Source: a virus. Taken from it: a stretch of DNA of 64,000 bases. Shown here piece after piece: positions 55,592 to 63,997 of the stretch. The notes under the pieces were generated by a model. That model saw nothing but the letters and a program-made list of their open reading frames with translations. It was not told where the DNA came from and did no database searches. Position 1 is the stretch's first letter. Each line of letters opens with the position of its first letter. Both the position numbers and the translations under genes were made by a program. The stretch spans positions 24,671 through 88,670 of IMG/VR virus record IMGVR_UViG_3300031951_000076, one strand, 5' to 3'.

Positions 55592-57211
55592 TTAGAATGA
55601 ACCACCAGTAATAGGATTGCGCATAACAATCTTCAATACCTTGGTAGGATCTTTCACCCAAATTGCAGGCATTGTTTGTGTCATAAATACGCGATATCCA
55701 TTGAAATTACCAGAAGATTGGAAACCTTGTGTACGACCCATATAATCCATGGTACCATTTTGATAGAACCATTTCAGTTGGTTGTCCCAGCTAAGTTTCA
55801 ACAAGAAGATATTATCATTTGTGTTATCAGTGATATCAAAGATAATAAAGTTGTAAGAGCTAAGAGGGAAACCATCGATGATTGGATTTTCGATGTCGTT
55901 AGTGTGTACATTATCAAACGCAGGGTTAAGTACAAACTTAATGTTAGCCAAGAAAGGAATAATGTACTGAGTGTATGCAAATCCAAAGTTCAGATCCATA
56001 CCTTGACCAGTAATTGCTCCAATTTCTTTAGCATTAATCACTAAGCCAGAATTAACTGCCTCACGCTTAATAGCTTCATTAACAAGTTTCATACCACCAA
56101 GACCTGTTTGTACAATCAATTGACGTTGAGGATCTGGTCCTTTAAATTCAACTTTACCGTTAAAGAAGTTAAAGATTTCAGATTTAAACAAGTCAAGATT
56201 GAAAGATCCACGGTTGTAGATACGCTTGTAAGAGTTGTCAAGTTGCTTCCAAAGACCCACAGACAAACGAATATCATCTGGACCATCTTGCTTAATACGT
56301 CCACCTTGTCCCCACATCAAGTAGGTTTCGATGTCATTAGCAATTTTGGTAAGATGAGCTGCCTCAAGTGTAGTCAAGAAAGAACGAGTAAGTTGTCCTG
56401 ATTGATAAGCTTTCTTTACATAATCTTTACCAAGCTTAGAAGCCATGTCTTCAAGATTAGTAATAGAAGGATCAGGATTCTTTTCAAAGTTTCTCCAAAG
56501 TTCAATTACAGGTACAGTTCCATCAGCTTTCATACCACCTTTCATCATAAGGTCAGCACGAGAAGAAATAGAATAATGTACGTGAGCTTCAGCACCACCT
56601 ACGTAGTTGTAGAACTCACGAAAACCTGCAGACACTGAACCAATGTCAGAGAAACGCTCGCCATATTCACCACGAGCAGAACCTTTACGAAACACTCTAG
56701 TTCCAACAGCAAGATACTGATTTTGGATGAACCTAAAGTTGTCGTTGTTCACAAGTTGAACAGTGTAAATAAAACCATCACCAGCAGGGATGACATCATC
56801 AGCAGTGATGTACATCTCAACGCCATTGTATTTATCATAAGTGATGATATCACCATGACCAAAAGAGCGTTTGTTGATTTTGATTCTAAATGTTTGTCCA
56901 TCAATACCTTTAGTTGTATTGCCTGGATCTAGATCTTCTACTATGTAAGGAAGATCTTGTGCGACAGGAATCTGCCATTTGTATTCACCACGTGCGTTGT
57001 CTACCATAATCACGTTCTTACCACCAAAGCTGGACATTTGATAAAGAGGCATTTCTACCTTTTGTACCATTGCCCACAAATCGACAGGACCTAAATCTGT
57101 AGGTTCTGCGCTCTTAAGGAGGTTAGACAAGTGATATGAATCCACATGTGAACTCGTATGATACTGAGTGTCACGTAGGAATATACCATTGTTTAAAACT
57201 GGAGTTGCCAT
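55592..57211 (-). CDS. Major capsid protein (HK97-fold, crAss-like), 539 aa
   Basis: Length, position after the scaffold-like gene and composition fit the crAss-like major capsid protein. It has an N-terminal arm (LLKSAEPTDLGPVDLWAMVQ), then a beta-rich region (VMVDNARGEYKWQIP, split motif), a DPGNTTKGIDGQTFRIKINK segment, a central helical domain with SSRADLMMKGGMKADG, and a C-terminal domain ending in MRNPITGGSF. No protease gene of the HK97 type is seen nearby. It is followed by a strong hairpin, consistent with high dosage. I am confident of the role from context, without a structure comparison. Confidence 0.85.
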   Translation of the reverse strand: MATPVLNNGIFLRDTQYHTSSHVDSYHLSNLLKSAEPTDLGPVDLWAMVQKVEMPLYQMSSFGGKNVIMVDNARGEYKWQIPVAQDLPYIVEDLDPGNTTKGIDGQTFRIKINKRSFGHGDIITYDKYNGVEMYITADDVIPAGDGFIYTVQLVNNDNFRFIQNQYLAVGTRVFRKGSARGEYGERFSDIGSVSAGFREFYNYVGGAEAHVHYSISSRADLMMKGGMKADGTVPVIELWRNFEKNPDPSITNLEDMASKLGKDYVKKAYQSGQLTRSFLTTLEAAHLTKIANDIETYLMWGQGGRIKQDGPDDIRLSVGLWKQLDNSYKRIYNRGSFNLDLFKSEIFNFFNGKVEFKGPDPQRQLIVQTGLGGMKLVNEAIKREAVNSGLVINAKEIGAITGQGMDLNFGFAYTQYIIPFLANIKFVLNPAFDNVHTNDIENPIIDGFPLSSYNFIIFDITDNTNDNIFLLKLSWDNQLKWFYQNGTMDYMGRTQGFQSSGNFNGYRVFMTQTMPAIWVKDPTKVLKIVMRNPITGGSF

Positions 57212-61434: not shown

Positions 61435-63630
61435 CTATCTAAGATTTTTGAATGGGCTTCTTGGCTGTGCATATGCTGACGGTTTAAATTTAGATTGTCC
61501 AATATGTCTAAATGGCCCCCAATCTAATTTACTAATTTTTTGGGGTTTTTCCAACTTTTCATTATACTCAATTCTTTTAGCAAGACCTCTATTAGATTGT
61601 TGCACTTTAGCAAAAGCTACAAGTGCGCAGAAAGATACAAGTCTATCCACATTTAGACCTTCTCTATAATCTTTCATTTCTTTAAGAAGCATAGGATCTG
61701 GAATGCGCTCCACGCCATATATAGTCTTAACAATTGTACCATCTGGAAGTGTTTCGTGATCAAGTTCTTCTTGTAAAAATTCTACACCATAAGATAAGAG
61801 ATTACCTTTAAACAATGTACCTACGTTTTTCCAACCATATTGTTGAAACACATTTCTATTAGCTCCAAGATCTTTAAGAAACAATATCATATCTTTTGGT
61901 ACAAGATAGCGTTGTTTCTTTTTAGATATCATGTATTGAATAAATAATGCCACGTTATTTTCTACAATAGTCCAAGCATTATACCATTCAATCATTAATT
62001 CTAACCGTTCATGTGTTTTATTAATATCATCAAACCTACCACACCAACTAGCAACAATCTTATCACGCTCTATTGAATTTTTAACATCTCCATTACCATT
62101 ATCTTGTATTATTTCTACAGCATTCTTAAGAATGTATATAGAACAGAGAGATTCAGATGTTGTTGTCTTACCTTCACCTACAGGATCTATACTTGCATAA
62201 TACATCCCAAATGTTGGATTGCTAACAGGACGTTCGTACACACATATCACTCCTTCTTTATCTTCTGTATTTTTCTTAATTGGAAACTCCATAATAGGAG
62301 TTTTTCTAGATTGTTTATCTACTATTTTACCTTCAGCATTTCTACTAAGTTCTAAATACTCAACTGAATAAAGTTTATCATTTATTCTTTGAAGTTGTTT
62401 GGTTACAAGATGAGAAGGAAAAACACTCACCTTTCTTGTAGCAAACGCTTCTTCTATATTACGAGGATGCTGAGATATTGTAAGTTGATAAGCTTCTGGG
62501 GCAAGTTTCTTTTTAGCTTTTTCAAACTCTTCATCTAAAGCTTTTAGTGCTTCTTCTACTAATGAATTACCATAATCATCTATATATGGAGGCATACTCC
62601 ATTGCTCAGGAATAAAAAGTCCTGTTACACCTATTGTACCATCACCATCTAAAAGATTACTTTCTACAGCAAAGAATCCATTCTCATCTGGATTTAGAAT
62701 ATACTCCTTCATAGGTTCACACTGATCCAAGTCACCCACTGAACCTGCTGCTATAAACTGACCAGTGATAATATGACCTGATTTAAGTGCAGGTTTCATA
62801 AACCCATATGTATCATCCATCTTTGGTGCGATACCAGCTTCCTCATGAAAGAAATAAGTTACAGGTCCACCCACACCATGTGTAGGATCTTTCTCAAATG
62901 AATAAAGATTAATAGTAGACTTATTACCTTTAAAGGTGTCCCTACCATTAATCCTCACTTTAATTTGTTGTTGCCATGCACCCACCTTATCAGGTTCAGC
63001 AGGTCTATACCATGCAGTATGTTCATTAAGAAAGTTTCTATATTCATTTAAAAACTTCCAAGAACCTTTTTCATTTATATAGTCTTTAAGACTTGCACCT
63101 ATCTTTAACACAGCACCATCTTCAAACCAATACTGATTTATAAGTTTAGCCATATGAAAGTATGATGAAGCTATCTGACGTTTCTTTAGAATAATAGCAT
63201 GCTTCCAGTTTAGTTCAGCTAAATGTTCATAGAGAGCCATATGATACTGTGCGTCACGAACCTTTGCAAAATCAAAACGCTTTTCTTCTTTATCATAGAT
63301 GGGAAGAAAATTAAGCCACATGTAATAGTCTCTAGAAATATACCAAGTGTTCGTATTAGAATGTACTATTATTCCTTTACGACATTTATTCTTTTGGTCA
63401 TCCCAATAGTTTATAAAGTCTTTTGTTTTAAGAGGAGCATCACAATAGTATCCCTGCTTTTGAAACTTACGTGCTTCTGCATTAAATATACGTGTAGTTT
63501 CATCAAAGTTGTACGTACCAGGTTCTTTAAAAAGTGATTGTAAAAAATCTTTAAATTCCTCTCTTGTTTGAAAAGCTGTAACAGACCACGTCCCATTTTT
63601 GTATGTTGGTACTTCTATAAAATTATCCAT
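61435..63630 (-). CDS. terL: Large terminase subunit, 731 aa
   Basis: The DNA-packaging motor. The ATPase half has a Walker-A-like region in ILKKRQIASSYF (about 147-158), a Walker B VTYFFHEEAG (257-266, catalytic E263 or E264) and a coupling-type IAAGSVGD (293-300). The nuclease half (about 470-670) has YASIDPVGEG with D482, WTIVENN with E557 and NVDRLVSF with D662, the acidic residues expected for two-metal cleavage of concatemeric DNA. Length suits crAss-like terminases. The start overlaps the preceding 80-aa gene by 8 bases. Confidence 0.92.
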   Translation of the reverse strand: MDNFIEVPTYKNGTWSVTAFQTREEFKDFLQSLFKEPGTYNFDETTRIFNAEARKFQKQGYYCDAPLKTKDFINYWDDQKNKCRKGIIVHSNTNTWYISRDYYMWLNFLPIYDKEEKRFDFAKVRDAQYHMALYEHLAELNWKHAIILKKRQIASSYFHMAKLINQYWFEDGAVLKIGASLKDYINEKGSWKFLNEYRNFLNEHTAWYRPAEPDKVGAWQQQIKVRINGRDTFKGNKSTINLYSFEKDPTHGVGGPVTYFFHEEAGIAPKMDDTYGFMKPALKSGHIITGQFIAAGSVGDLDQCEPMKEYILNPDENGFFAVESNLLDGDGTIGVTGLFIPEQWSMPPYIDDYGNSLVEEALKALDEEFEKAKKKLAPEAYQLTISQHPRNIEEAFATRKVSVFPSHLVTKQLQRINDKLYSVEYLELSRNAEGKIVDKQSRKTPIMEFPIKKNTEDKEGVICVYERPVSNPTFGMYYASIDPVGEGKTTTSESLCSIYILKNAVEIIQDNGNGDVKNSIERDKIVASWCGRFDDINKTHERLELMIEWYNAWTIVENNVALFIQYMISKKKQRYLVPKDMILFLKDLGANRNVFQQYGWKNVGTLFKGNLLSYGVEFLQEELDHETLPDGTIVKTIYGVERIPDPMLLKEMKDYREGLNVDRLVSFCALVAFAKVQQSNRGLAKRIEYNEKLEKPQKISKLDWGPFRHIGQSKFKPSAYAQPRSPFKNLR

Positions 63631-63879: not shown

Positions 63880-63997
63880 CTGTAGGGGTAGGATTCGAAC
63901 CTACACGTTGACTATTCTCAACAAAAAGCTTATTTCTGTGGAGAATACTCAACACTATCGAGACAAGATAGCGTGTCTGCCATTTCACCACCCTACA
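63880..63997 (-). tRNA. tRNA-like gene, Leu-type body, GUC anticodon, giant variable arm
   Basis: The minus strand folds into a full cloverleaf: acceptor TGTAGGG/CCCTACA (7 perfect pairs), D-arm GTG...CAC with AAATGGCAGA, anticodon stem CTATC/GATAG with loop TTGTCTC (anticodon GTC, at 63962-63964), and T-arm GTAGG-TTCGAAT-CCTAC. The discriminator is G and no CCA is encoded. The D-arm and GGTGAAATGGCAGACACGC opening are those of bacterial tRNA-Leu. The variable region is 50 bases and forms a hairpin of about 19 pairs (GTTGA/TCAAC, TATTCTC/GAGAATA, then ACAGAAA/TTTTTGT), far beyond the usual 11-23 bases. Position 37 is T, which is unusual. It may be a functional class II tRNA of odd identity, or a tRNA-shaped processing signal. 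Confidence 0.75.

Follow-up and report, generated by a model that had tools for sequence, protein, structure and literature searches.

Extra tRNA-like RNAs can be regulators, as two described cases indicate. In Bacillus cereus, the chromosomal pseudo-tRNA tRNA-Other is reported to be non-translational and to have a regulatory role (PMC3399842), and a human tRNA-Asp(GUC) that cannot be aminoacylated is reported to act on the expression of the aspartyl-tRNA synthetase (AspRS) gene (PMC8007984). For bacterial tRNAs, a review lists G73, G34, U35, C36 and C38 as strong aspartate determinants and G2-C71 as a minor one, with G1-C72 strictly conserved in tRNA-Asp (PMC9976931). Here we examine a tRNA-like RNA encoded in the window, by which we mean the whole stretch of DNA analysed: the final 64,000 bases of the 88,670-base virus record IMGVR_UViG_3300031951_000076. 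The RNA gene occupies the minus strand, just 3 bases away from the end of the contig. It is a member of a widespread and apparently undescribed tRNA-like RNA family of Bacteroidota and their phages, in which the five strong bacterial aspartate-identity letters are, at the level of sequence, essentially invariant. No description of the family was found in the open-access literature, where an account under a different name could be missed.

The tRNA-like RNA and its family

The original prediction described an intact cloverleaf with a variable arm of about 50 bases and 19 pairs, a Leu-like D-arm, the anticodon GUC, T at position 37 (U37) and G73. Stem pairing and comparison confirm the cloverleaf, folding confirms the arm, and all of the named letters and the D-arm are present in the window copy, which is composed as follows.

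63880..63997, minus strand: whole tRNA-like RNA, 118 nucleotides (nt), positions 1-73; covariance model R1, 95.1 bits
63991..63997, minus strand: 5' strand of the acceptor stem, TGTAGGG (U1, G2), partner of 63881-63887
63973..63988, minus strand: Leu-like D-arm with stem GUG/CAC; the D-stem covaries across the RNA family
63955..63971, minus strand: anticodon arm CTATC-TTGTCTC-GATAG, from sequence and covariation
63960..63966, minus strand: anticodon loop UUGUCUC with U33, G34 U35 C36, U37 and C38, from sequence
63905..63954, minus strand: 50-nt variable region, a hairpin of 19 base pairs by folding
63888..63904, minus strand: T-arm GTAGG-TTCGAAT-CCTAC, from sequence
63881..63887, minus strand: 3' strand of the acceptor stem, CCCTACA, from sequence
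63880..63880, minus strand: discriminator G73; C at the adjoining 63879, CCA not encoded

On the minus strand, the copy reads TGTAGGG TG GTG AAATGGCAGA CAC G CTATC TTGTCTC GATAG, then the 50-nt variable region, then GTAGG TTCGAAT CCTAC CCCTACA G. All positions are paired in the acceptor (7/7), D (3/3), anticodon (5/5) and T (5/5) stems, the variable arm forms blocks of 5, 7 and 7 pairs separated by single mismatches, and the core tRNA letters U8, A14, G18G19 and TTCRA are kept. The folding energy is -44.7 kcal/mol, compared with a mean of -25.5 for shuffled sequences (z -5.45; 0 of 200 shuffles). Because the D and T arms are absent from the lowest-energy fold of the single sequence, the cloverleaf of the window RNA rests on comparison.

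This comparison used a loop-masked covariance model of 20 sequences, in which the anticodon loop was masked. In the alignment, 99.2% of 480 cells are paired and 20 of the 24 pairs have changed on both sides; the covariation score of 0.619 stands against 0.199 in shuffles (0 of 500), and slid controls pair at 50-62%. Covariation strongly supports the predicted cloverleaf fold. Across 234 copies (see below), the 5' half of the D-stem is GUG, ACG, AUG, UUG, GCG or UCG, and the 3' halves match in the sequences inspected. In a covariance-model scan, proposed originally as a check, Rfam reported nothing above gathering in the window. Within the virus record, R1 gave the copy 95.1 bits (E 2.7e-24), a score that is partly by construction, because the training set held an RNA identical to that of L001, a near-identical relative of the window that was not itself in the training set as such.

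DNA-pattern searches returned at least 119 stretches in viral contigs and at least 119 in one-per-species genomes, and the figures drawn from them (234 copies, 113 and 119 chromosomal loci, 124 copies with flanks) refer to the matches listed. Filtering reduced these to at least 234 different full-length copies (92 from viruses, 142 from chromosomes), and the chromosomal loci with a full-length copy belonged to Bacteroidota in 111 of 113 cases, to Ignavibacteriota in one and to a genome without phylum label in one. With the loop-masked model, the RNA was found in 30 of 296 genomes sampled across Bacteroidota (32 were returned, two of which were taken as tRNA-Leu), in 39 of 59 genomes of the order of G007 and in 13 of 40 of the order of G002; scans of more than 40 genomes used stricter filters, and the genome counts are lower bounds. 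Among 61 genomes from the class to which the Ignavibacteriales genome belongs, the RNA was found in that one alone, and this single copy could be a transfer or a misplaced contig. A search for DNA similarity in annotated phages gave no match for a 2566-base region or for the L105 copy.

Long-armed copies are missed by gene finders, and ARAGORN and Rfam recognise only short-armed copies. ARAGORN reported no tRNA in the window and none in the 14 chromosomal loci tried, and none of the 16 chromosomal loci tried passed Rfam gathering; in contrast, the short-armed relatives L014 and L058 reach 42.0 and 41.7 bits with RF00005 (gathering 29 bits), and ARAGORN names the short-armed RNA tRNA-Asp in six terminase loci. 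Because short-armed copies are recognised, some family members will stand in databases as tRNA-Asp. Assignment to tRNA-Sec was rejected (RF01852 14.9 bits against a gathering of 47; anticodon GUC, not UCA), and a four-base anticodon, called 'tctc' by ARAGORN in L008, is unneeded, as the 7-base loop TTGTCTC fits between paired stems.

The variable region spans 21 to 130 nt across the family and takes two forms, either a simple hairpin, as in the window, or a more elaborate arm built around a GACCAC core, with GAUAAA/CUAA as an internal loop. Among the matches listed, the core occurs in 61 of 92 phage and 56 of 142 bacterial copies, and the internal loop, which is reminiscent of the UAA/GAN motif, in 55 of 92 and 107 of 142. 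In viral copies (L105:2510-2665, L126, L156, L084 and others), the GACCAC core is followed by a palindrome of 6-12 nt that differs between phages, such as GCGCGC, GCCGGCCGGC, GCATGC, GTGCAC or GTTGCAAC. Such a palindrome is present in 39 of 50 distinct viral segments (15.0 in shuffles) and in 17 of 50 bacterial segments (15.3 in shuffles); it could be a kissing-loop dimer site, in the manner of the human immunodeficiency virus (HIV) dimerization initiation site (DIS) loop.

Aspartate identity letters and the anticodon loop

The pattern behind the 234 copies prescribes C31-G39 as well as portions of the anticodon loop and the D-arm; its counts are biased for those letters and unbiased for G73, 1-72 and 2-71. 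The loop-masked search, which yielded 64 rows, is fairer for the loop letters, and members with differing stems or D-arm may escape it. Among these 64 rows, G34 was found in 63 and U35, C36 and C38 in all; all 234 pattern-found copies have both G73 and G2-C71, and G73 is also present in 46 of 46 copies that were reached through the terminase. Position 37, in turn, is U in 58 rows, C in 4, G in 2 and A in none, a purine thus occurring in only 2 of 64, and position 33 is U in 53, A in 6, G in 3 and C in 2. Ordinary tRNAs encoded in these phage loci served as the control: each of 64 distinct ones had U33, and each had A or G at 37. Thus, the letters that AspRS reads are fixed, whereas a letter that ordinary tRNAs keep has been systematically changed.

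The identity elements were originally considered mismatched, which is not the most apt description: on a Leu-like body, GUC, C38, G73 and G2-C71 form a coherent bacterial aspartate set (PMC9976931). The misreading of Asp codons that had been suggested is unneeded. Two other assignments do not agree with the letters: tRNA-Leu, in view of G73 in 234 of 234 copies instead of A73 and of the anticodon GUC, and tRNA-Ser, in view of A72 and U11-A24 in the window rather than C72 and C11-G24. At the 3' end, the base after G73 is C in all 234 copies, and 206 of them have A at -2, even though most do not encode CCA; these letters may bear on end processing.

Canonical tRNA-Asp, with the loop CUGUCAC, is encoded in the same arrays as the RNA in phages G009 and G015; in G010, ARAGORN found no canonical tRNA-Asp. 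At least five hosts (G002, G003, G005, G006 and G007) have a canonical tRNA-Asp sequence with a GUCAC loop. The host pattern gave many chance matches, control counts being similar, and only rows reading GTCACG...GGGTTCGAGTC were used; the matches listed do not extend to G001, G004 and G008.

Chromosomal and phage settings

Chromosomal copies look like stand-alone RNA genes, judging from their flanks. Of 124 chromosomal copies whose flanks are long enough, 67 have a TAnnTTTG box, the Bacteroidota-type promoter consensus, upstream, against 5 and 7 in two control windows. A terminator-like hairpin lies within 60 nt downstream of 34 of the 124 (0 in the control). In 73 of 119 loci, among them the Ignavibacteriales locus, the first gene upstream encodes a divergently oriented Lrp/AsnC regulator. 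Among 99 genomes, a close Lrp orthologue, defined by a cut-off of E 1e-47 or better that was chosen after the list had been seen, was present in 11, the RNA in 8 and both in 8, with the RNA and the Lrp gene far apart in 3 of these 8. Two distinct tandem copies occur in 29 of 113 chromosomal loci among the matches listed, and single chromosomes carry five (G005:C1:4115688-4116630) or six (G339:C1:3545330-3546434) tandem copies.

In the window, the RNA is followed on the same strand by phage genes.

63623..63865, minus strand: small open reading frame between the RNA and the terminase, 80 amino acids if it starts at ATG; no match in Pfam or PHROG
61435..63630, minus strand: large terminase, phrog_6681, downstream of the RNA and on its strand
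55592..57211, minus strand: crAss-type major capsid protein, PF23898, which fixes the phage as crAss-like

The portal protein matches phrog_6547, and by these three protein matches (capsid PF23898, terminase phrog_6681 and portal phrog_6547) the window phage is crAss-like. The same locus was compared in related phages, as had been proposed, by collecting terminase homologues irrespective of the RNA (the best 80 of 293 loci). With the loop-masked model, the window copy and the RNA of 46 of these 80 loci score more than 70 bits; the other 34 lack it, some being too short, and among 40 loci with more than 3 kilobases upstream, 11 lack it. The RNA is therefore common, not universal, in this crAss-like phage group. 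In the 46 loci, it lies 250-1140 nt (median 419) upstream of the terminase and on the same strand, and its anticodon loop is CUGUCUC in 33, UUGUCUC in 12 and CGGUCUC in 1.

Several further elements accompany the phage copies. In 17 of the 46 loci (L022, L035, L037, L043, L047-L049, L054, L055, L057, L062, L068, L071, L072 and L078-L080), the D-loop holds an extra hairpin with a second UGUCUC and compensatory stem changes; the repetition hints at something that binds the loop motif itself. Just after the RNA, L029, L038, L039, L050 and L066 (and L058) keep a stretch AGGTTRACTGGAAT...TTTAACTGTAGAAAGGG, maybe another structured RNA, near which L058 gave no Rfam match. Just before it, the closest relatives (L001, L002, L005, L007-L010, L012 and L014) keep an element whose hairpins are of the GCTAGATCGTAAGCTAG and GTTGGCAACT type, for which L014 gave no Rfam match. 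In phages, the RNA often sits within tRNA arrays, and two records that carry it also have a transfer-messenger RNA (tmRNA) gene (L377:4031-4405 and L381:1997-2398). Within the phage tRNA array at G010:C1:134803-138222, several model matches of 105-151 nt are perhaps tRNAs with inserts in other arms.

Readings of the RNA and comparison with known systems

We favour a reading in which the RNA would be a phage copy of a conserved Bacteroidota tRNA-like RNA with a leucine-type body, a long arm and aspartate identity letters. The housekeeping AspRS would charge this RNA, or at least bind it, and the altered anticodon loop, which has no A37 and does not require U33, would allow little or no normal decoding at Asp codons. 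The charged or bound state would serve in sensing or supplying aspartate outside translation, under Lrp-type control, and the phage would carry the RNA, like tRNAs and sometimes tmRNA, to keep it available during infection. That the RNA is both charged or bound by the housekeeping AspRS and kept from normal decoding is, in our judgement, an even call; in the sensing or donation role, the Lrp-type control and the purpose for the phage, we have less confidence than that. The complete proposal, in which a Bacteroidota RNA linked to Lrp would be aspartylated by the housekeeping AspRS, barred from the ribosome and used for aspartate sensing or donation, with phages carrying simplified copies for control or replacement, is tentative and, taken whole, rather doubtful.

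Several observations weigh against the favoured reading. The window copy, like 229 of the 234 copies, begins with the pair U1-A72 instead of the G1-C72 of bacterial tRNA-Asp; G10 is present in the window, yet most of the family has A or U; and the conservation of U37 is not accounted for by AspRS identity. U33 is kept in 53 of 64 rows, so that weak decoding is possible, and the Leu body, long arm and G73 could also suit seryl-tRNA synthetase (SerRS). Matches to AspRS (aspS) numbered one in each of 98 genomes and none in one; no second aspS was found in any of the 99, so that the search gave no dedicated paralogue in the hosts and no special AspRS partner. The Lrp orthologue is also present in 3 of 91 genomes without the RNA (G017, G087 and G106), where a search with filters off found no divergent RNA copy beside the Lrp gene, and the Fisher p of 9.6e-10 for co-occurrence is uncorrected for shared descent. 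Among phage copies, the TAnnTTTG box is seen in 3 of 77 (4 and 3 in controls) and a terminator-like hairpin in 0 of 77; given this and their same-strand site before the terminase, they probably arise by cleavage of a longer transcript. The expression of the RNA, its charging and its function are themselves predictions from sequence.

Two rivals are the most serious, a supplementary tRNA-Asp that takes part in decoding and a regulatory RNA that stays uncharged. The former, which we consider unlikely, would be charged with Asp and decode GAC/GAU, its changed position 37 and long arm being either tolerated or a protection from anticodon nucleases. It would explain why GUC is kept in 63 of 64 rows, why the AspRS letters are complete save G1-C72 and G10, why phages often hold the RNA in tRNA arrays and why ARAGORN calls the short-armed copies of six loci tRNA-Asp, and anticodon-loop changes in phage tRNAs are described as evading nucleases (PMC10264068). 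However, the ordinary tRNAs of the same phages combine U33 with a purine at 37 in 64 of 64 cases, whereas 11 of 64 family rows lack U33; canonical tRNA-Asp is already present in phages G009 and G015 and in at least five hosts; and the same loop is found on host chromosomes, which the nuclease evasion by phage offered in the original prediction leaves unexplained.

An equally low probability is given to a non-aminoacylated regulatory or scaffold RNA, in which the tRNA shape would confer stability and the UGUCUC loop would serve for base pairing or protein binding. The second UGUCUC in the D-loop hairpin of 17 of 46 terminase loci, the elaborate arm with its conserved GACCAC core and GAUAAA/CUAA internal loop, and a U37 conserved though AspRS identity does not demand it are all in its favour; it leaves the invariant C38, G73 and G2-C71 unexplained as a set, and the window shows no excess of GAGACA, the complement of the loop (18 occurrences against 25.1 expected).

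The remaining alternatives fare worse. A serine-accepting tRNA that inserts Ser at Asp codons is quite improbable: the RNA has the Leu body, G73, G2-C71 and a large arm, and the review states that replacing A73 by G73 can switch tRNA-Leu to serine acceptance in certain systems, but also that bacterial Ser identity includes C72 and C11-G24, where the RNA has A72 and, in the window, U11-A24 (PMC9976931); as SerRS ignores the anticodon, the conserved GUC and C38 would be unexplained. A transcript-processing signal, that is, an RNase P site before the late genes in these phages only, is more improbable still. The site 250-1140 nt (median 419) upstream of the terminase on the same strand in 46 loci and the lack of promoter and terminator signs of their own in phage copies make processing, also raised in the original prediction, possible within this phage group; the chromosomal copies, which stand alone with promoter-like and terminator-like flanks and not beside one operon, are unexplained by it, and RNase P needs no anticodon-loop invariance. 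A decayed tRNA-Leu pseudogene, suggested by the Leu-like D-arm and by the Leu anticodons of R1's next matches, is ruled out by covariation, unbroken stems and invariant letters in hundreds of copies, and homologous loci have retained the GUCUC loop and their long arm instead of showing a normal arm and a Leu anticodon.

The family joins the full set of strong aspartate letters to a loop unlike that of all 64 ordinary tRNAs of the same phages, is mostly missed by gene finders, and reaches a large fraction of the genomes in some Bacteroidota orders (39 of 59 in one). If the favoured reading is true, common environmental bacteria would possess an aminoacyl-RNA that acts outside translation and is linked to one specific regulator, and its phage copies would give a simple way to approach the question of why phages carry tRNAs.

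With canonical bacterial tRNA-Asp (GUC), which it accompanies in several genomes, the RNA shares G34 U35 C36, C38, G73 and G2-C71, and it differs in its long variable arm, Leu-like D-arm, U1-A72 and lack of A37. With bacterial class II tRNA-Leu, it shares the D-arm and a long variable arm, and R1's weaker matches include tRNA-Leu genes; it differs in having G73 rather than A73, the anticodon GUC and a variable region of 21-130 nt. B. cereus tRNA-Other is likewise a chromosomal tRNA-shaped RNA (PMC3399842); it belongs to a different phylum, and we claim no homology. No phage family is known to carry it. The human tRNA-Asp(GUC) is similar in being an additional tRNA-Asp-like RNA whose role is linked to AspRS and lies outside decoding; it is said to be unchargeable and to have a changed T-arm (PMC8007984), and again no homology is claimed. 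Nuclease-evading phage tRNAs (PMC10264068) are alike in their altered anticodon loop, a change that the RNA shares with copies on host chromosomes.
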